Of a stretch of DNA of 39,294 nucleotides, positions 862-15,921 are shown one piece after another. Below the pieces are notes generated by a model. The model saw only the letters and a list, made by a program, of their open reading frames with translations, had not been told where the DNA came from and made no database searches. The DNA is taken from contig NZ_JQGL01000023.1 in NCBI RefSeq assembly GCF_000747095.1, forward strand, positions 1-39,294, written 5' to 3'. Both the position numbers and the translations under genes were made by a program. The DNA is from Sulfuricurvum sp. MLSB. GTDB taxonomy: Bacteria > Campylobacterota > Campylobacteria > Campylobacterales > Sulfurimonadaceae. Numbering within the stretch: the stretch's first letter is position 1; every line of letters starts with the position of its first letter.

Positions 862-1707
862 TTATTTCCTTTTCTTTCCGTAGAATAAGATCAGTCGTCC
901 CAGAATATTGAGTCCCAAAATGAACATCGAAAGGATGAATGCGGCGGCCCATCCAAGCTGCTGCCAGTCTTCGTACGGACTGATCGCATAGTTAAAAATC
1001 GTCACGGTCAATGAAGGCATCGCGGCGTTCAGATCGGTCGTGAAAAAGTTGTCATTGAACGAGGTAAAGAGCAGCGGTGCCGTTTCTCCTCCGACGCGGG
1101 CGATTCCCAGCAGCACTCCCGTCAAAATCCCTGCTTTGGCACCGCGGTAGACGACATCCATGATCACCTTGTATTTCGGTGCGCCGAGGGCAAATGCCGC
1201 TTCGCGCAGCGTGCCGGGCACCAGCTGGAGCATGTCATCGGTCGTGCGCAAAATGATCGGAATCATAATGATACCCAATGCGATCGCTCCCGCCCAGGCA
1301 CTGAAATGCCCCATCGGCATAACGACGACGGCATACACGAATGCCCCGATTACGATCGAGGGGGCCGACATCATGATGTCGCTGATATCGCGGATCGTAT
1401 GTGCCAGTTTGGAGTTTTTGCCGTATTCGCTGAGATACGTTCCCGCCATGATTCCCAGCGGAACACCGATCAGCGTGGCAAGGCCTACGAGGATCAGTTG
1501 CCCGACGAGGGCGTGCTTAAGACCGCTCTCTGCGTATCCCGGAGGCGCCCCTTCCATCGTGAAGATCGTGAGATTCAGGGCATTGATCCCGTTGCTGACC
1601 AGAATCCACAAAATCCAGAACAAAAAGCCCAGCGCGACAACGGCGCTCAGCGTCGAGAAGGATAACGCGATGCGGTTGATCAAAATCCGTTTTTGGGTTG
1701 AGGTCAT
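862..1707 (-). CDS. pstA: Phosphate ABC transporter permease PstA
   Basis: PstA is one of the two membrane subunits forming the phosphate channel. The 281-residue protein has an N-terminal membrane helix (about residues 12-37), further hydrophobic segments, and the cytoplasmic EAA-type coupling loop around REAAFALGAPKYKVIMDVV that contacts PstB. Its ATG overlaps the pstC stop in an ATGA (1704-1707), and pstB follows after three bases, which is typical translational coupling within pstCAB. No internal defect is visible. Transcription is expected from the Pho-type promoter upstream of pstC and possibly by read-through from phoU. Confidence 0.96.
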   Translation of the reverse strand: MTSTQKRILINRIALSFSTLSAVVALGFLFWILWILVSNGINALNLTIFTMEGAPPGYAESGLKHALVGQLILVGLATLIGVPLGIMAGTYLSEYGKNSKLAHTIRDISDIMMSAPSIVIGAFVYAVVVMPMGHFSAWAGAIALGIIMIPIILRTTDDMLQLVPGTLREAAFALGAPKYKVIMDVVYRGAKAGILTGVLLGIARVGGETAPLLFTSFNDNFFTTDLNAAMPSLTVTIFNYAISPYEDWQQLGWAAAFILSMFILGLNILGRLILFYGKKRK

Positions 1708-2505
1708 TGTCCTTTCCTCACTTTACGTAAAAAGTAGAATTTCGCGACGGCGATGACGACGAAACTCATGATCAGAAGCGTCAGTGCCAACCCGAAAAGG
1801 CTTGAGAAATAGAGTGACGAATCGGCTTCGGTGAATTCGTTGGCCAGCGTAACCGGAATGGACGTCGTCGGATCGAGAATCGAACTTGGGGTATGGTGGA
1901 CATTCCCCATCACGAATGTGACCGCCATCGTCTCCCCGATCGCCCGTCCCAGAGCCAGAATAAGCGAACCGATGATCCCCGCTTTGGCGTAAGGGATGAT
2001 GATGTCTTTGATGACGTCCCACTGCGTTCCGCCCAGCGCGTAGGCGGACTCTTTGAGAATATCGGGGGTGGTGTTCATCGCGTCGCGCGTCACGCAGCCC
2101 GATCCCCATGCCGCCGAAAAGGTCGCGGATGATGGGGACGAAGTAAAAAAGCCCCCACATACCGTAGATAACCGAAGGGATGGCGGCGAGGAGTTCGACG
2201 CTCACGCCGAAAAATCCTTTGATTTTGTCATGAGCAATTTCGCTGAGGAAAATAGCGACCCCGATCGCGACGGGGATGGCGATGAGCATCGCCAGAAACG
2301 TCGAAACGACCGAACCGAAGATGGCCGCGAAAGCTCCGAACTTGTCAACGTTGGGAGCCCACTCGTCTTTCGTGATGAAATCGAACCCGAAAGCGTTCAT
2401 CGCTTCGGTCGAATGCTCGAATAAGACGACAAAAATCCATGCGACGATGAAAAGGATCAGCAGTGCGCTGAAACGGGTCATGTTGTGAAAGATTCTATCG
2501 ATCAT
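1704..2505 (-). pseudogene. pstC: Phosphate permease pstC, disrupted by an internal frame-shifting deletion
   Basis: PstC is the partner permease of PstA. Translation from ATG 2503-2505 (SD AAGG at 2512-2515) gives about 137 good PstC residues ending FGGMGIGL, then nonsense. From about 2093 another frame resumes PstC with TRDAMNTTPDILKESAYALG, including the EAA loop and C-terminal helices, and ends at 1704. In PstC proteins the GIG and RDxM segments are separated by a membrane helix of the type LTAGIILAIMIIPFIAAV. Here about 17-19 residues are absent and the frame changes, so a deletion of some 50-56 bp (length 2 mod 3) fits better than a simple indel. As read, no functional PstC can be made. 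Assembly error is the main alternative. Confidence 0.88.
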
Positions 2506-2546
2506 ACATTGCCTTGCAAAGGGGATATCCCTGAAAAATGGAGGCA

Positions 2547-2580
2547 ATTGTATTACGCGATGATTACAACTTTGTTACGA
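2547..2580 (-). promoter_or_regulatory. Pho-box promoter of pstCAB
   Basis: On the minus strand: half-site TCGTAAC (2580-2574), 4 bp, half-site TTGTAAT (2569-2563), exactly 10 bp, then TACAAT (2552-2547) as -10. A further 11-bp-phased unit GCGTAAT (2558-2552) overlaps the -10. The layout matches the phoU, pstS and porin promoters. It lies 42 bp upstream of the pstC ATG and overlaps the last codons of cca. Binding by the PhoB-like regulator encoded at 5354-6043 is inferred. Confidence 0.8.
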
Positions 2581-3948
2581 GAGGTGCTCAGAGAGCCATT
2601 CAAGGGCTTCGGCGCGGGTCGTGATTTTACGGTGCAGCTGAGCTTCGAATGCGGCATTCAGGATAGGTGTGAACGCTTCGGAGGGTGTCATTCCGGCTTC
2701 GATTAAATCCCGACCCATCAGCAGCGGCTTGGGCGGAGCGAATAAAACCCCAAGCGTTTGGGCACGATTGCGCAGCCATTCTCCGGCATCAAAGGTTCCG
2801 GGGGTATCGCCGAGGAAAGCGCGGCCGAAAAAATCGGCTTCGGCGACGCGGATCATGTCGTCAATGCACACGTGCGTGCTCAGGCGGAGGATGGCACACT
2901 CGTCGGCATCGGCACGGTAGAGTTTGCGAGGCCATCCGTGATAGCGGACAAGAGGGAGTACCGCTTCGATCAGCGATTTGTCATCGGTTACGTTGAGCAG
3001 CCATGAGCGGGCAAGTTCCACCCCGACTTCGGCATGATGGGGCGCATTGAGTTTGCCGTTTTCGATAACGGTTGTCTGGGGCTTTCCGATGTCGTGCAGC
3101 AACACCGCCAACATCAAGATCAGATCCCGTTTGGCGTCACCGCTGCGTCGTGACGCCATGACGTCGACCGACATCAGGACATGCGTCCATACGTCCCCTT
3201 CGGGATGAGAAGCGTAATCCTGCGGCGTTGATTCGAGTTGGTCGAGCGGCGTAAAAAACGAAAGGCCTCCCATCTCTTTGAGCAATGTCAGGCCCAAAGA
3301 TGGGCGGAGGCTGAGGAGGAGCTTTCTGAGCTCTTCAAAAATCCGCTCTTTTGGGAGTTCATTCAATGCCCCTTGCGCAATCATGGTGCGGCACAGCCGC
3401 AAAAGCATTTCGTCGTATTCGAGTTCAAACCGGGCGGCAAACTGGATTGCACGGAGGACCCGAAGCGGGTCGTCGACAAACGTTTCGGGATCGACGCACG
3501 CAAGCCGCTTGCGTTCAAGATCCCCGATTCCGCCGTAGGGGTCCAGAAACGTGTGTGTTATGGGATCGTAACCGATCGCGTTGATCGTAAAATCACGCCG
3601 CCTCGCCGCCGCGGCGAAATCGATGTCGCTGTGCCACGAAACCTCAAAACCTTTGTGCCCGAATCCCCGTTTCGACTCGGTGCGGGGAGGAGAAAAATCG
3701 AGGTGGTAGCCTGCATACGAGAGTTTGAGAACCCCGAAACTTTTACCGACCAGATTGACGCGTCCGAACGGTTTCAAAAGTGCTTCCAGGGTTTCCAATG
3801 ACGTTACGCCGTAGAGTTCGATGTCGATATCGGGGTTTTGGTTTCGGGTGAAATGGTCGCGTACAAATCCTCCGACCAGAATCGGCTTGATCCCTGAGGC
3901 CCAAAGATGTTCGATCAATGAGGCAAGGGGAGGGGAAAGCGGGATCAT
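2575..3948 (-). CDS. cca: CCA tRNA nucleotidyltransferase / poly(A) polymerase family protein with HD domain
   Basis: This enzyme family adds or repairs the 3'-CCA of tRNAs using CTP and ATP. The 457-residue protein has the class II nucleotidyltransferase head with GGFVRD (about 26-31) and the metal-binding DxD in DIDIE (about 40-44), then RRDFTINAIGYDP and the RNA/nucleotide-binding neck. A C-terminal HD phosphohydrolase domain follows, with LLHDIGKP. Such HD-bearing forms are the bacterial multifunctional CCA type. Its ATG overlaps the stop of the upstream kinase by four bases (ATGA, 3945-3948), so it is probably co-translated with a phosphate sensor kinase. The one tRNA in this window already encodes its CCA, which suggests a repair role. 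Activity against poly(A) cannot be excluded. Confidence 0.9.
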   Translation of the reverse strand: MIPLSPPLASLIEHLWASGIKPILVGGFVRDHFTRNQNPDIDIELYGVTSLETLEALLKPFGRVNLVGKSFGVLKLSYAGYHLDFSPPRTESKRGFGHKGFEVSWHSDIDFAAAARRRDFTINAIGYDPITHTFLDPYGGIGDLERKRLACVDPETFVDDPLRVLRAIQFAARFELEYDEMLLRLCRTMIAQGALNELPKERIFEELRKLLLSLRPSLGLTLLKEMGGLSFFTPLDQLESTPQDYASHPEGDVWTHVLMSVDVMASRRSGDAKRDLILMLAVLLHDIGKPQTTVIENGKLNAPHHAEVGVELARSWLLNVTDDKSLIEAVLPLVRYHGWPRKLYRADADECAILRLSTHVCIDDMIRVAEADFFGRAFLGDTPGTFDAGEWLRNRAQTLGVLFAPPKPLLMGRDLIEAGMTPSEAFTPILNAAFEAQLHRKITTRAEALEWLSEHLS

Positions 3949-5360
3949 TTGCTTGGCTTTTTGGATTTTTCAACAAAGTTTTCGAGGGGAAAACTAAAAG
4001 TTGAGCCGATGCCGAGCGTGCTGTCGATGTTCAGTATAGTGTCGTGAAGTTTGAGAATGTAGCTGACGATAGAGAGTCCCAGCCCCATCGAATTGTCCCA
4101 TCGGTTTTTTTGGACACGGTAGAACTTGGACGTGATTTTGTCGAGTTCCGCCGGGGCGATCCCGATCCCTTTATCGTTCACCGAAATAGCGGTTTGGGTG
4201 AGCGAGAGGGTTACTTCCTCTTCGGAATATTTAAGGGCGTTGTCGATGAGGTTGGTGATGACGAGTTCGATCATTGTTTTATCGGCAAACACCGTTTTGG
4301 AAATACCGTTATAGACGATTTTTCGGTCAGGATATTTTGCCTGCAGAAGGGATACGATCTCGGCACATACTTCGCCTATGTCAAACGCGGAAGGTTTAAT
4401 CGAGAGATCGTTGTTTTCAAGTTTGACGGAAAGGGCGAGGCGGTCCAGCATCAGCGTCACCCTGTGGGTATTGGTAATGATTTTGTCCAGAAACTTTTCA
4501 CGGATTTTCGGATCGATTTCCGGATCGTCGTGCAGCGTTTCGGCGTATCCCATAATCGCGGCGATCGGGTTTTTGAATTCGTGGCTGATCGCCGAGAGGA
4601 TATCGTTTTGCTGTTTGTTGATCAGCCGCAGCTTCGCGGTGTGTTTGCGTTTTTGTTTGTCGCGGTTATGGAGCTTTTTGACCAGATTTTTCAGCATGAT
4701 CGAGATTTGTAGAAATTCGCGGAAATACTCGGGTTTGAGAACCGCTCTGTAGTTTTTGGCCGATATTTCGTCCAGATAGCGGGTGATCTGGACGATGTCG
4801 TAGCGCGCTTTTTTGGAGATGTTATAGGCGATTGCCAGTGCGATGATCGTCAGTATCGCAAACGCCGCAAAAAATTTGATCCATAACGCGTAAAAATGGT
4901 CCATAACGTTTTTGAGACTCATCGCGAGGCGGAGATAAAGGGTTTGATGTTTGTGGGTTGTTATTTTTTTGGCGATGTAGATGAAATCGGTTTTAAGGGT
5001 TTCGGAATACCGGACGGTCATACCGTAGGACGCGCTCATCGAATGCATCACTTCGATACGATTCAGATGATTTTCCATCGTTTTTTTGTCGGTATCGCTT
5101 TCGGCGATAACGGTGCCGTCCTCGGCGATGATCGTGACGCGGTAGCCTGTTTTTTTAGCCGTTTGAGCCGCCAAACGGTCGAAATTTCCGGTTTCGGAGA
5201 CGGGAACTTCCAATAATTCGATGCCCCGCAACAATTGGACTTTTCCGTCTTCGATGATCATTGATTTGAGGGTAAAAAAACTGATCAGCGAGGCGATGGC
5301 CAGTGCTGCGACAAAAAGGCCGAGGACATTGAGAAAAAAGAGTTGATGGATTTTCAGCAC
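3945..5360 (-). CDS. Sensor histidine kinase, PhoR-like
   Basis: This membrane kinase probably phosphorylates the adjacent response regulator when phosphate is scarce. It has 471 residues: membrane helix 1 at about 7-29, a periplasmic domain of about 125 residues, helix 2 at about 162-180, and a HAMP-like linker. The dimerisation/phosphoacceptor domain has His260 in SAISHEFKNP. The HATPase_c domain shows the N box (TNLIDNALKYS), G1 (DKGIGI) and G2 (MGLGLSIV). The start is GTG at 5358-5360, overlapping the regulator stop by 7 bp. The large periplasmic domain differs from the short one of E. coli PhoR. The phosphate role is inferred from position between phoU and pst and from the shared promoter motif. 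Confidence 0.88.
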   Translation of the reverse strand: MLKIHQLFFLNVLGLFVAALAIASLISFFTLKSMIIEDGKVQLLRGIELLEVPVSETGNFDRLAAQTAKKTGYRVTIIAEDGTVIAESDTDKKTMENHLNRIEVMHSMSASYGMTVRYSETLKTDFIYIAKKITTHKHQTLYLRLAMSLKNVMDHFYALWIKFFAAFAILTIIALAIAYNISKKARYDIVQITRYLDEISAKNYRAVLKPEYFREFLQISIMLKNLVKKLHNRDKQKRKHTAKLRLINKQQNDILSAISHEFKNPIAAIMGYAETLHDDPEIDPKIREKFLDKIITNTHRVTLMLDRLALSVKLENNDLSIKPSAFDIGEVCAEIVSLLQAKYPDRKIVYNGISKTVFADKTMIELVITNLIDNALKYSEEEVTLSLTQTAISVNDKGIGIAPAELDKITSKFYRVQKNRWDNSMGLGLSIVSYILKLHDTILNIDSTLGIGSTFSFPLENFVEKSKKPSK

Positions 5361-6043
5361 AGGGTGTATCCGACTCCTCGTACGGTTTTGATGTAATCTT
5401 TGGTTTTGTCAGGGTCTATTTTTTCTTTGAGACGGTTGATGGCGACATTGACGGTTCGCTCCTGATATATTTCGTCCCCGCTCCACACGTGTTCGAGGAG
5501 ATAATCGCGGTCTAACACGACATTTTGATTGGCAATCAGTGCGTGGAGAAGGTCGAATTCGAGCTTGGTCAGCTCAACGGGGGTCCCTTCGATGGTGAGG
5601 GTTCTGGCTGCCAGGTTGAGCGACATATCCCGGTACACGAGCGACCCTTCCATCGAGAGTTTTTTGGTGCGGCGCAAAATGGCGCGTACCCGAAGGACAA
5701 GCTCTTTCATGCTGAACGGCTTGGTGATGTAATCGTCTCCTCCCCGCTCAAACCCCTGCTCGATATCTTCATCTTTGTGCTTGGCACTGACAAAGATAAC
5801 GGGGGTCTGAACCCCTTTTTTGCGGAGCATGTCGACAAATTCGCTTCCTTCGGCACCGGGAAGATTGCGATCCATCAAAATCAGATCGACGTTCTCTTCT
5901 TCCAGTGCCTCCTGCACCCGTTTCGTATTCAGAAAACCGATGGTTTCGAATCCTTCTTTACCCAGATGGTACTCCATCAGCTCCAGAATATCCTGCTCAT
6001 CCTCGACGATCAGTATTAGTGCGTCCACGTACGGTTTCCTCAT
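5354..6043 (-). CDS. OmpR/PhoB-family response regulator
   Basis: The 229-residue regulator has a receiver domain with acidic residues Glu15/Asp16, phosphoacceptor Asp58, Ser86 and Lys108. It is followed by a winged-helix DNA-binding domain (about 135-229) with a recognition helix around QERTVNVAINRLKEKI. The start at ATG 6041-6043 is chosen because the receiver motif begins a few residues later and phoU stops four bases upstream; a longer frame starting inside phoU exists but is unlikely. It lies between phoU and a PhoR-like kinase, and Pho-box-like promoters surround it, so it is the best candidate for a PhoB-type activator acting on this locus. Direct binding is inferred. Confidence 0.9.
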   Translation of the reverse strand: MRKPYVDALILIVEDEQDILELMEYHLGKEGFETIGFLNTKRVQEALEEENVDLILMDRNLPGAEGSEFVDMLRKKGVQTPVIFVSAKHKDEDIEQGFERGGDDYITKPFSMKELVLRVRAILRRTKKLSMEGSLVYRDMSLNLAARTLTIEGTPVELTKLEFDLLHALIANQNVVLDRDYLLEHVWSGDEIYQERTVNVAINRLKEKIDPDKTKDYIKTVRGVGYTLC

Positions 6044-6047
6044 GGTG

Positions 6048-6719
6048 TTAGTTGTAAATATGCAGCTCTCCGCCTTTTTGTGCGTAGAGGAGCAGCGCAG
6101 CGATATTAACGGCACGATCACCCGAACGCTCGAGCTTGCGGAGCGTTCCGAGTACTTTGACGTATTCGACTGAAAGTTCGCCCGATTTGATGATAAGAGT
6201 CAAAAGCTCTTTTTCCATTATAGAAAAGAGATCGTCGTTTTTGGACTCTTCGACCATCACTTTACGGTACAGATCTTCGGCGTCACAGACTTCTTTGGCT
6301 TCCAAACACTCGTAAATGTATTGTAGCGCATTGAGCGTCGTTTTATGCAGCTGGATCATGGCACCGGTCAAAACGCTCAGATCGCACTCTCCGGCGCAGT
6401 GTTCCTGAAGACGGCGGGCGTATTTGCGCATGCCGTCTCCGATGCGGTCGAGCTCATTGGTCATTTTCAGATAGGCGACAAGCAAACGGAGTTCATCGGC
6501 TTCGGGGCCGAACAGTGCAAACGTTTTGATAATTTCATTATCGATTTTATTTGCATCGCTTTGGAGATTCTTCAGATGGATTCGCGCGCTTTCGTACAAT
6601 GCGGTATCGTGATTTTCAAACGCATGAAGGGTATCTTCGCTGGTGCGGATGATTTGCAGCAAAAGGGCTGAAATCATCGAGCGAATTTCACTGAGTTTGT
6701 TTTCATAGCGTGGTAACAT
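6048..6719 (-). CDS. phoU: Phosphate signalling regulator PhoU
   Basis: PhoU links the Pst transporter to the PhoR-type kinase and represses the Pho response when phosphate is plentiful. The 223-residue protein has two repeated helical-bundle PhoU domains, with the metal-site signature ELDRIGD in the first (about 88-94) and a matching KLERSGDRAVNIA near the C-terminus. The start ATG 6717-6719 is preceded by AAAGG at 6726-6730. It is first in the minus-strand cluster phoU, response regulator, kinase, cca, pstCAB and has its own Pho-box promoter, back to back with that of pstS. Length and motifs are complete. Confidence 0.94.
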   Translation of the reverse strand: MLPRYENKLSEIRSMISALLLQIIRTSEDTLHAFENHDTALYESARIHLKNLQSDANKIDNEIIKTFALFGPEADELRLLVAYLKMTNELDRIGDGMRKYARRLQEHCAGECDLSVLTGAMIQLHKTTLNALQYIYECLEAKEVCDAEDLYRKVMVEESKNDDLFSIMEKELLTLIIKSGELSVEYVKVLGTLRKLERSGDRAVNIAALLLYAQKGGELHIYN

Positions 6720-6749
6720 AACTAACCTTTGGACAGGAATTGGTGCGCG

Positions 6750-6783
6750 ATTGTAGCGCCCATTTATAACAGTGCGATTACAA
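6750..6783 (-). promoter_or_regulatory. Pho-box promoter of phoU operon
   Basis: Minus strand: TTGTAAT (6783-6777), CGCA, CTGTTAT (6772-6766), exactly 10 bp, TACAAT (6755-6750). Transcription would start near 6743, about 24 bp before the phoU ATG. The distal half-site forms an 8-bp inverted repeat (GATTACAA/TTGTAATC) with that of the divergent pstS promoter. This implies autoregulation of the PhoB-like regulator. Confidence 0.8.
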
Positions 6784-6795
6784 AGAGCCGGCAGC

Positions 6796-6829
6796 TTGTA
6801 ATCTTTTTGTTATCCGGCGGTTTTACAAT
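6796..6829 (+). promoter_or_regulatory. Pho-box promoter of pstS
   Basis: Plus strand: TTGTAAT (6796-6802), CTTT, TTGTTAT (6807-6813), exactly 10 bp, TACAAT (6824-6829). The 7-4-7 arrangement with 11-bp phasing is the geometry of an E. coli PhoB box replacing the -35. The predicted start is near 6836; the pstS SD AAGG is at 6847-6850. Confidence 0.82.
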
Positions 6830-6858
6830 GGCACCATCAAAACACCAAGGACATCAAG

Positions 6859-7860
6859 ATGCTAACGAAAGCTACCAAAGGTTTAGTCATCGCGGCCATC
6901 GCTGCGACTTCAATGATCGCTGCTGATAAAATCAACGGCGCAGGAGCGACATTCCCGGCTCCATGTTATTACGATTGGGCGTACAACTACCAAAAAGCGA
7001 CCAAAACGCGCGTCAACTATCAGTCTATCGGATCCGGCGGCGGTATCAAGCAGGTTTCAGAGCGTATCGTTGATTTCGGTGCTACGGATGCTCCGTTGAC
7101 GCCGAAAGAGCTTGATAAAGCCAAACTAACCCAATTCCCGGCCGTTATCGGTTCGATTGTCGTAGCGCATAACCTGCCGGGTGTTGCGGATGAAAAATTA
7201 AAACTCAAAAACAGTGTTGTTGCCGACATCTTCGCCGGCAAGATCACGATGTGGAATGATCCGGCCATCGCGGCGGACAATGCTGGGATCAACCTCCCTG
7301 CGCAAAAAATCATCGTAGCCCACCGTTCTGACGGATCGGGGACAACGCACGTTTTCACCGACTACCTGAGTGAGTCTTCTAAAATGTGGAAAAGCAAATT
7401 CGGTGTCGGTAAAGCGATCGGCTGGGCAACCGGCGTCGGCGGAAAAGGGAATGAGGGTGTGACCAATATCATCAAACAAACCCCGTATTCGATCGGTTAC
7501 ATCGAAAATGCCTACAAAGAGAAAAACAACCTCTCTGCCGCAACGCTCCAAAGCGCCAGCGGAAAATGGGTAAGCGCCCGTACGGCTACGTTCCAAAATG
7601 CGGTCAAACAGGCTAAATGGAGCAAAAAAGACCACTTTTTCAGCTCACTCGTTATGCAAGACGGCGATGCGACCTATCCGATCGTCGCGGCAACGTTCAT
7701 CCTGATGCCCAAAGAGAAAGCCGAAGTGAACGCCGAAGTGATCAAATTCTTTGACTATTCGTTCCGCAACGGCGACAAAGCGGCTGAAAAACTCGGCTAC
7801 ATCGCCCTTCCGGTCGAAACGACGAACCTTGTTCGCCAATACTGGGCGGAAACTAAATAA
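6859..7860 (+). CDS. pstS: Periplasmic phosphate-binding protein PstS
   Basis: PstS captures phosphate in the periplasm and delivers it to PstC/PstA. The 333-residue precursor has a signal peptide (positive N-terminus, hydrophobic core VIAAIAATSMIA, likely cleavage near residue 22), then the mature start DKINGAGATFPAP. Phosphate-contacting segments visible are SIGSGGG, DFGATDAPLTP and HRSDGSGTTHVFTDYL. The start at 6859 has SD AAGG eight bases upstream. Unlike the common pstSCAB order, pstS is detached from pstCAB and runs divergently from phoU, but it shares their Pho-box promoter layout. The gene appears intact. Confidence 0.96.
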   Translation: MLTKATKGLVIAAIAATSMIAADKINGAGATFPAPCYYDWAYNYQKATKTRVNYQSIGSGGGIKQVSERIVDFGATDAPLTPKELDKAKLTQFPAVIGSIVVAHNLPGVADEKLKLKNSVVADIFAGKITMWNDPAIAADNAGINLPAQKIIVAHRSDGSGTTHVFTDYLSESSKMWKSKFGVGKAIGWATGVGGKGNEGVTNIIKQTPYSIGYIENAYKEKNNLSAATLQSASGKWVSARTATFQNAVKQAKWSKKDHFFSSLVMQDGDATYPIVAATFILMPKEKAEVNAEVIKFFDYSFRNGDKAAEKLGYIALPVETTNLVRQYWAETK

Positions 7861-7886
7861 GCTTTCCCTGCTTCGCCTTTTCGGGC

Positions 7887-7925
7887 GGGCACCTCTAAAA
7901 GCATTCGGTGCCTTTAGAGGTGCCC
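7887..7925 (+). terminator. Strong hairpin after pstS
   Basis: A 13-bp perfect stem, GGGCACCTCTAAA (7887-7899) with TTTAGAGGTGCCC (7913-7925), encloses a 13-base loop, 27 bp after the pstS stop. There is no T run after it, so it may act as an attenuator or an RNA-stabilising 3' structure instead of a classical terminator. Such a structure would help keep pstS mRNA more abundant than the downstream porin. The rest of 7926-8028 shows nothing recognisable. Confidence 0.6.
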
Positions 7926-8028
7926 TAACACGGCCCATCCGTTTCATCTCTCCCTCTTCACAATCCTTAAGTTTTCAAGTCCGTCCTTGCGTATGCGTTC
8001 GGGCTTGGTTTTTTATCCATTTTCCTTC

Positions 8029-8078
8029 TCGTAATCGTCGTGTAATGTAACATTGGCGTAATCTGTTTTTTCTACAAT
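8029..8078 (+). promoter_or_regulatory. Pho-box promoter of the porin gene, two box copies
   Basis: Proximal box: ATGTAAC (8045-8051), ATTG, GCGTAAT (8056-8062), exactly 10 bp, TACAAT (8073-8078). A second box lies just upstream, TCGTAAT (8029-8035), CGTC, GTGTAAT (8040-8046), out of phase with the first by 16 bp and overlapping it by 2 bp. The predicted start is near 8085, ahead of the SD AGGAG at 8096-8100. Confidence 0.78.
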
Positions 8079-8109: not shown

Positions 8110-9492
8110 ATGAAAAAAGTTGCATTATCAGCCCTTGCTGCGGCGATGATCAGTGGCGTTGCATCAGCGGATGCGTTGACCCTCTATAGTGATCCTAAAA
8201 CCGGGCAAGTGTTTACGACTCCGGGTGAAGGCCGTGTGGAGATGGGTGATTTCGTAAGTGCAAAAGAAGTTGATATGCAACTTCGCGAAATCGAATCAAA
8301 AGGGTCTGAATACCAAGACAAAATGTCTAAATATGTCAATGTAAAATCCAAAGCAAAAACGCTTGAATTCAGCGGAACGCATTACCTCGGATTTACAAGC
8401 GTGGATCCGTCGACAAAAGTCGATTCGGCAACCAGCAACTCAAACTATCAGGGGCGTTCGTCAGGATTTGAAATGCGCCGCAACTACGTACAGGTCAAAG
8501 GGTACTTCAACGATAAAGACTATTTTCGCGTGACTTTGGACGCCACAAAAGAATTGGCTTCCGATGCGGCGACCGGAGCCCAGAATAAAGGATACGCGGA
8601 CGTATTCGTCAAATACGCATACCTCTATTTGGATAAAGTGCTTCCGTACACGGGCGTAGAAATGGGTATCGTACACCGTCCGTGGATCGACTACGAAGAG
8701 CACAATGCATGGCATTACCGCGCATTCAATAAAGTCATGCTGGAAGAAAAAGGGACAGCCACCGAATCGGGTGTCGACCTTGTCAACTCGGCTGACTTCG
8801 GGATGAACTTCAAAACGCAGACCGACATGTTTAGTTCTGAAATCGGACTCTTCAACGGGGAAGGTTACCACGCGGACAAAGAAGCGGCCAACCAGGAAAA
8901 CTCAAGTCAGCTTTCGGTTGAGTGGCGTTTGACGGGGCATATTCTCGGCGACGGCACAAAAGTGGGTAAAAATGACCGTACAAAAGATACGTATGCCAAC
9001 ATTTCGACCTACGGTTTGATCTCGAACAATCATAAAGACAATGACGTTGATCTCGGCGGCGTCAACGACAAAAACGAATACGACCGCAGCTTTTACGGTA
9101 TCCATGCGGTGTACAACCAGCCTGAATTCCTGATTGCGGGTCAATACTTTACGGCGAAAGATAAAGCACGTACCGAAGATATCGCTACGTCATTCGATAA
9201 AAAAGATTACACGGGATGGTCGATCAATGCCGAATACCGCCCGATTCAGGACTGGACCGTTATCGGACGTTATGATAACTACGAAATCGAAACCGATCTG
9301 AATGGCGTTATGACGTCTAAAATCGAAGGTGACAAGATCATTGCCGGTTTGGCGTACAAATATAATAAGAATGTGAGCTTCATCGGTTCGGCGAAATTCA
9401 TTGACGAAGAAGATTCAAAAGTAGCTGCCAGATCAGGCGATACCGGCGAATCAAAAGATGTATACATGCTAACTACCGAAGTGAAATGGTAA
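8110..9492 (+). CDS. Outer-membrane porin, probably phosphate-selective (OprP/OprO type)
   Basis: The 460-residue protein has a clear signal peptide (MKKVALSALAAAMISGVASA), a short coiled segment (about 50-80), then a beta-rich domain with alternating aromatic strands. Features such as FEMRRNYVQVKGYFNDKDYFRVTLD and GWSINAEYRPIQDWTVIGRYD fit an OprO/OprP-like 16-strand barrel. The C-terminus ends in EVKW, close to the usual terminal aromatic residue of porins. The start has SD AGGAG nine bases upstream. Two Pho-box copies precede it and pstS lies just upstream, so uptake of phosphate or a related anion across the outer membrane is the likely role. Selectivity is inferred from context, not from identified binding residues. 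Confidence 0.82.
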   Translation: MKKVALSALAAAMISGVASADALTLYSDPKTGQVFTTPGEGRVEMGDFVSAKEVDMQLREIESKGSEYQDKMSKYVNVKSKAKTLEFSGTHYLGFTSVDPSTKVDSATSNSNYQGRSSGFEMRRNYVQVKGYFNDKDYFRVTLDATKELASDAATGAQNKGYADVFVKYAYLYLDKVLPYTGVEMGIVHRPWIDYEEHNAWHYRAFNKVMLEEKGTATESGVDLVNSADFGMNFKTQTDMFSSEIGLFNGEGYHADKEAANQENSSQLSVEWRLTGHILGDGTKVGKNDRTKDTYANISTYGLISNNHKDNDVDLGGVNDKNEYDRSFYGIHAVYNQPEFLIAGQYFTAKDKARTEDIATSFDKKDYTGWSINAEYRPIQDWTVIGRYDNYEIETDLNGVMTSKIEGDKIIAGLAYKYNKNVSFIGSAKFIDEEDSKVAARSGDTGESKDVYMLTTEVKW

Positions 9493-15852: not shown

Positions 15853-15898
15853 CCGTAAACCTTTTTATGAACATTATGGATTTTCTTTGTTACAAAAC

Positions 15899-15921
15899 CG
15901 TTAAGTTTAGTAAAATTAACG
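15899..15921. promoter_or_regulatory. Inverted repeat in the divergent SafE-like / HMA promoter region
   Basis: CGTTAA (15899-15904) and TTAACG (15916-15921) form a perfect 6-bp inverted repeat with an 11-bp AT-rich centre, in the 123 bp between two divergent genes that are probably metal related. It could be an operator for a metal-responsive regulator. No regulator gene is adjacent. Confidence 0.35.

Follow-up and report, generated by a model that had tools for sequence, protein, structure and literature searches.

The region examined here lies in a 39,294-nt stretch of DNA from a Campylobacterota bacterium (the window) and holds a set of phosphate genes whose promoters look strikingly alike. 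It raises the question of whether these promoters belong to one phosphate-starvation (Pho) regulon, how far such a regulon would reach beyond the window and which regulator would read its box.

Gene content of the locus

The gene order is pstB, pstA, pstC, a poly(A)-polymerase/cca-type nucleotidyltransferase gene, a histidine kinase gene, an OmpR-type response regulator gene, phoU, pstS and a putative porin gene. On the minus strand, pstB (73-858) and pstA (862-1707) were assigned from the Pfam families ABC_tran and BPD_transp_1, respectively, together with their operon position. The adjacent pstC (1704-2506, minus strand) is broken in the assembly: compared with the closest relative (G037), 50 bp are missing at about 2093-2106 on this strand, with the frame shifted and the gene split. 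The gap is either an assembly error or a genuinely broken pstC; if the loss is real, a permanently-on Pho response would be expected. Further along the minus strand are the genes for a membrane histidine kinase resembling PhoR/PnpS (3945-5360; Pfam domains, scores below the cut-offs), an OmpR/PhoB-family response regulator that is the presumed reader of the box (5354-6043; Pfam domains, see below) and PhoU (6048-6719; Pfam PhoU, with a TIGR02135 score below its cut-off). On the plus strand, pstS (6859-7860) encodes a phosphate-binding protein that scores above the TIGR00975 cut-off. The gene at 8110-9492 (plus strand) is called a putative outer-membrane porin gene because its product has a signal peptide and a C-terminal Trp; no relative of this product was found in Pfam, NCBIfam or the PDB, and its single-sequence AlphaFold model was uninformative (pLDDT 30).

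Four promoters share a box of fixed geometry

Four promoters in the window carry the same arrangement, and all four sites proposed in a first-pass annotation of this DNA proved exact to the base. The pstC site (2547-2580, minus strand) reads TCGTAAC-aaag-TTGTAAT-catcgcgtaa-TACAAT. The site of the phoU-regulator-kinase operon (6750-6783, minus strand) reads TTGTAAT-cgca-CTGTTAT-aaatgggcgc-TACAAT, that of pstS (6796-6829, plus strand) TTGTAAT-cttt-TTGTTAT-ccggcggttt-TACAAT and that of the putative porin gene (8045-8078, plus strand) ATGTAAC-attg-GCGTAAT-ctgttttttc-TACAAT; these three are also supported by genus alignments. In each of the four, a 4-bp spacer separates two direct 7-bp half-sites, both with a GTWAY core, and TACAAT follows after exactly 10 bp. 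The porin promoter has an extra half-site pair, TCGTAAT-N4-GTGTAAT (8029-8046, plus strand; half-sites at 8029-8035 and 8040-8046), which is retained in 9 of the 13 aligned genus promoters and appeared as a two-mismatch match at 8031-8062 in the genome pattern scan. At pstC, the first half-site includes the stop codon of the gene upstream, and a third half-site, gcGTAAT, continues the 11-bp register and overlaps the -10 element; this third half-site is retained in the six genus pstC promoters inspected.

The window sites share three features with the PhoB-type Pho box, namely the direct 7-4-7 repeat, a final half-site that lies 10 bp before the -10 element in place of a -35 element, and a position ahead of pst or phosphate genes. 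Their core, GTAAY or GTTAY, departs from the TGTCA(T/C) core of that box, and a search with the E. coli-type half-site pattern (TGTCA(T/C) core, up to one mismatch) gave no match within the window. The pattern GTWAY-N6-GTWAY-N10-TAYAAT matched four times in the window and not once in 100 dinucleotide shuffles, a count that is circular because the motif was derived from these same four sites.

The motif marks phosphate genes beyond the window

GTWAY is a common word on its own, and TAYAAT a usual form of the -10 element; the likeness of the four promoters could accordingly be a coincidence of common AT-rich words ahead of ordinary -10 elements. We give this explanation practically no credence, as it is refuted by the spacing spectrum and the association with phosphate genes, and reversed-pattern controls also speak against it. 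First, the whole genome contains five exact matches, compared with one for the reversed-pattern control, and among 81 genomes of the family exact matches occur in 69, with 146 matches against 17 for the control (summed from the table). Second, when both gaps were left free (3-9 and 7-13, giving 49 combinations), gaps of 6 and 10 accounted for 46 of the 150 matches listed, and the other 48 combinations had a mean of 2.2 and a maximum of 7 among these listed matches. Third, the matches fall before phosphate genes. The fifth exact match of the genome immediately precedes a gene on contig C132 for a PiT phosphate transporter (PF01384, E 1e-103), and a whole-genome search for three half-sites without a -10 element gave zero-mismatch places only at pstC, at PiT (in two registers) and at the gene for the ornithine-lipid synthase OlsF on contig C46 (764 bits; cut-off 620). 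Among the same-genus genomes (n = 15), 37 of 39 exact matches precede porin, pstS, phoU, pstC or PiT genes. Two exact matches in genome G076 precede unrelated genes (a pseudopilin gene and a lepA-like gene) and are counted as false or unexplained. The three-half-site pattern is present in all 41 genus genomes examined with it (95 matches versus 5 for the control, summed), and of the 30 such loci inspected, 5 precede pstC, 16 olsF and 8 a PiT gene belonging to either of two dissimilar types, 29 in all.

The first-pass annotation had described a Pho regulon with a rigid box, had offered its motif as a means of finding the rest of the regulon, and was prepared to give up the reading if genome-wide matches were no more frequent before phosphate genes than elsewhere. 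The reading survives, because independent tests place the matches before phosphate genes: the spacing is rigid, PiT and olsF were found outside the window, and the matches in the genus are concentrated as described. The phoX, ugp and phosphonate targets that it had proposed were absent among the motif matches, and its count of four promoters was too low, as PiT and olsF bring the number in this genome to at least six.

Among one-mismatch matches, that before a CHAD gene on contig C16 was rejected as a member, its first half-site not being retained in relatives. The match on C88 has only a 26-codon reading frame downstream, and no member is claimed there. On C13, the whole-genome scan gave a one-mismatch match ahead of a sugar-nucleotide gene.

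Promoter layouts and the PiT array

In the genus alignments, the half-sites and the -10 element stand out as islands of conservation, and the spacers between them are fixed in length and variable in sequence. Two layouts occur. In the first (pstS, phoU and porin), the array stops 10 bp short of the -10 element. The olsF promoter has three clean half-sites, then an in-register degenerate fourth (GAAAT), 10 bp and TAnnAT; in the window's genome it reads ACGTAAT-acac-GTGTAAT-cgaa-ACGTAAT-acat-CTGAAAT-taacactata-TAGCAT, where we take TAnnAT, here TAGCAT, as the putative -10 element. In the second layout (pstC and PiT), an additional half-site, which is the fourth one in the PiT promoters, overlaps the -10 element. 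Over part of their length, the two types of PiT share about 28% identity, and similar four-half-site arrays precede both.

The half-site array of most PiT promoters in the genus directly adjoins a conserved AAAGAGA...GGCATAAT element. Another reading of the PiT boxes, and perhaps of the extra pstC half-site, is that they repress or tune transcription. An array lying over the -10 element, or just 3' of a constitutive promoter, would shut off the low-affinity transporter at low phosphate, and some pit genes are repressed by PhoB. The overlap of the fourth half-site with the -10 element is consistent with such a role, as is the abutting element, which would place the array at the start of its transcript. 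Meanwhile, the element is missing in the window's genome and in G037, the PiT gene at another Campylobacterota locus (L097) has the plain activator layout, box-N10-TATACT, and pstC shares the overlap, yet repressing pstC would make little sense. Because a conserved -10-like element abuts the PiT array in most genus members, we regard repression of PiT as possible, though less likely than activation.

As a separate observation, TCAAAGAGA...GGCATAAT lies directly 5' of the PiT array at ten loci and is common to the two dissimilar PiT types. This suggests either that the promoter was retained while the PiT gene was exchanged or that a second promoter is used by both types.

Distribution in the family and the order

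Most families of the order have this box ahead of pstS, and a TAnnAT-like hexamer usually follows at the distance seen in the window. Exact matches in the family's other genera precede pstC, pstS, phoU, porin relatives, PiT, regulator and DUF3450 genes, and some precede genes without an evident phosphate link. Outside the genus, G053 and G068 carry exact boxes at olsF, 34 and 35 bp ahead of the match, and others have half-site pairs. The single locus L097, from a distant relative, has 7-4-7-N10-TATACT ahead of three genes, namely an outer-membrane protein gene, the PiT gene and pstC, and a weaker form (TACCAT) ahead of a regulator copy.

Two further kinds of gene carry an exact box with its -10 element. 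In three genomes of other genera it precedes a DUF3450 gene; this family often adjoins TonB-ExbB systems, and the boxed genes may possibly serve energised phosphate uptake across the outer membrane. In three genomes of one genus of the family it precedes the gene of a soluble histidine-kinase-like protein, a possible added regulator in the regulon.

The response regulator

The window regulator is a 229-aa protein of the OmpR/PhoB family. It scores 193 bits with the PhoB equivalog model TIGR02154, below the cut-off of 296.2 bits, and in the tree it belongs to a separate clade (100/100, stem 1.33) outside the proteobacterial PhoB clade (100/96), with a deep branching order that is only moderately supported. 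As it lies below the PhoB cut-off and outside that clade, its specificity is predicted from genomic context and from four residues. In PhoB, the residues contacting bases are T194, V197, R201 and R219 (PMC3264566); by alignment, they correspond to T197, V200, R204 and R222 of the window regulator, which are near-invariant among 21 orthologs. The retention of these residues is in keeping with the TGTnAY core shared by the two boxes. The window regulator appears PhoB-like in its working, and is PhoB by descent only putatively.

Since 7-4-7 direct repeats are a general feature of the OmpR/PhoB family (PMC4832192), the boxes might be read by another member of the family and not by the neighbouring regulator. 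E. coli PhoB indeed matches the regulator on contig C145 marginally better than the window regulator (157 versus 151 bits). We consider reading by another regulator very unlikely: the regulators on C145 and C148 lie beside KdpD-like kinase genes, that on C145 also beside Trk-type potassium transport genes, whereas, in every genus member read over this stretch, the window regulator gene adjoins phoU and is divergently oriented to pstS. Furthermore, in another genus the regulator gene is itself preceded by an exact box. The neighbouring regulator is retained as the presumed reader. The C145 and C148 proteins are both KdpE-like response regulators, and their scores with the PhoB model are as high as that of the window regulator. 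A profile search of genome contigs with the regulator gave, among the matches listed, one Campylobacterota locus (L097, 54%) and unrelated OmpR-family regulators.

Proposed mechanism

With a probability of roughly 90%, we read these genes and promoters as the Pho regulon of a Campylobacterota bacterium that works as follows. Phosphate shortage would cause the kinase to phosphorylate the response regulator, which would then bind head-to-tail to 7-bp half-sites (nTGTWAY-like) spaced every 11 bp. The final half-site, which lies 10 bp ahead of a TAYAAT -10 element, would replace the -35 element, so that the regulator would recruit sigma70 RNA polymerase in the manner of E. coli PhoB. The predicted targets are pstS, the phoU-regulator-kinase operon (autoregulation), pstCAB, the porin-like gene, PiT on C132 and olsF on C46, the last for phosphate-free ornithine lipids. 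Directly observed are the sites themselves, how they are spaced and conserved, and that they lie ahead of the target genes; from these we infer that the window regulator binds the box, activates the promoters and induces them at low phosphate.

Comparison with known systems

In E. coli, the phoA promoter reads CTGTCAT-AAAG-TTGTCAC-GGCCGAGACT-TATAGT, with the same distance to the -10 element in phoB and pstS. The E. coli Pho box (CTGTCAT-N4-CTGTCAY) is like the window boxes in its 7-bp half-sites, 4-bp spacer, 10 bp to the -10 element (phoA, phoB and pstS) and TGTnAY core, and the PhoB/PhoR system is also alike in the base-contacting residues of the regulator and in the targeting of pst and regulator genes. 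Since phoA, phoB and pstS of E. coli share both the spacing and the -10 distance, these are classical features. The 7-4-7 match to the PhoB box pointed out in the first-pass annotation thus holds, and extends to the 10 bp before the -10 element, but its description of the box as sequence-distinct was overstated: the layout is the same, and a single core position is changed, position 5 being A or T in the window and C in E. coli (TGTCAY to TGTAAY/TGTTAY). The systems also differ in the regulator, which in the window belongs to a clade of its own and scores below the PhoB cut-off, and in the olsF and PiT boxes, which here have three or four half-sites.

Other systems resemble the window in part. 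The M. tuberculosis PhoP box consists of 7-bp repeats with a strict 4-bp spacer and is bound cooperatively, with assemblies that can reach trimers and tetramers where the repeats are longer (PMC4832192); it has the same strict spacing as the window box, with a different half-site (TCACAGC) and an unrelated regulon. In C. jejuni, the two-component phosphate system PhosS/PhosR controls pst genes (PMC9449129). The window system is likewise a phosphate two-component system with predicted pst control, in the same phylum. The PhosR box is reportedly GTTTC-N6-GTTTC, a direct repeat with an 11-bp period, and the four window sites do not read GTTTC, which would agree with the difference from PhosR proposed in the first-pass annotation. 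PhosS/PhosR is also said not to be autoregulated, in contrast to the phoU-regulator-kinase operon here, which carries a box. The bifunctional ornithine-lipid synthase OlsF of V. cholerae (VC0489) is under PhoB (PMC12186959); it belongs to a different phylum and regulator clade, and control of olsF here is predicted from three or four half-sites. A published Campylobacterota Pho box or olsF control was not found in the literature searched, which is no proof of absence.

On sequence evidence, the predicted regulon is a real, order-wide Campylobacterota Pho regulon, of a kind already known and as a variant of it. More tentatively, at somewhat under even odds, we propose a combination of three points: the regulator is no PhoB ortholog yet reads a PhoB-type box with the same promoter geometry, the regulon is conserved in the order with olsF included, and four-half-site PiT arrays could toggle between activation and repression by their position. 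For environmental Campylobacterota, the motif supplies a tested sequence rule for their response to phosphate starvation. It also predicts phosphate control of ornithine lipids, which reportedly make up 40% of the lipids of Sulfurimonas gotlandica and are not known to be tied to phosphate there (PMC9789136). Finally, in this locus a diverged regulator would have kept the promoter geometry of PhoB, a natural setting in which to study what determines the position of the box with respect to the -10 element.

A second motif

Another motif, TTAACAY-N3-TGTAACAY, shows a comparable 11-bp periodicity. It has four exact copies in the genome (C18:1316, C22:268, C22:4758 and C114:9205), two of which precede TonB-dependent receptor genes, and probably belongs to another OmpR-type regulator. 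Weaker sites of this motif occur elsewhere, including one in the window at 15873-15904 on the minus strand.
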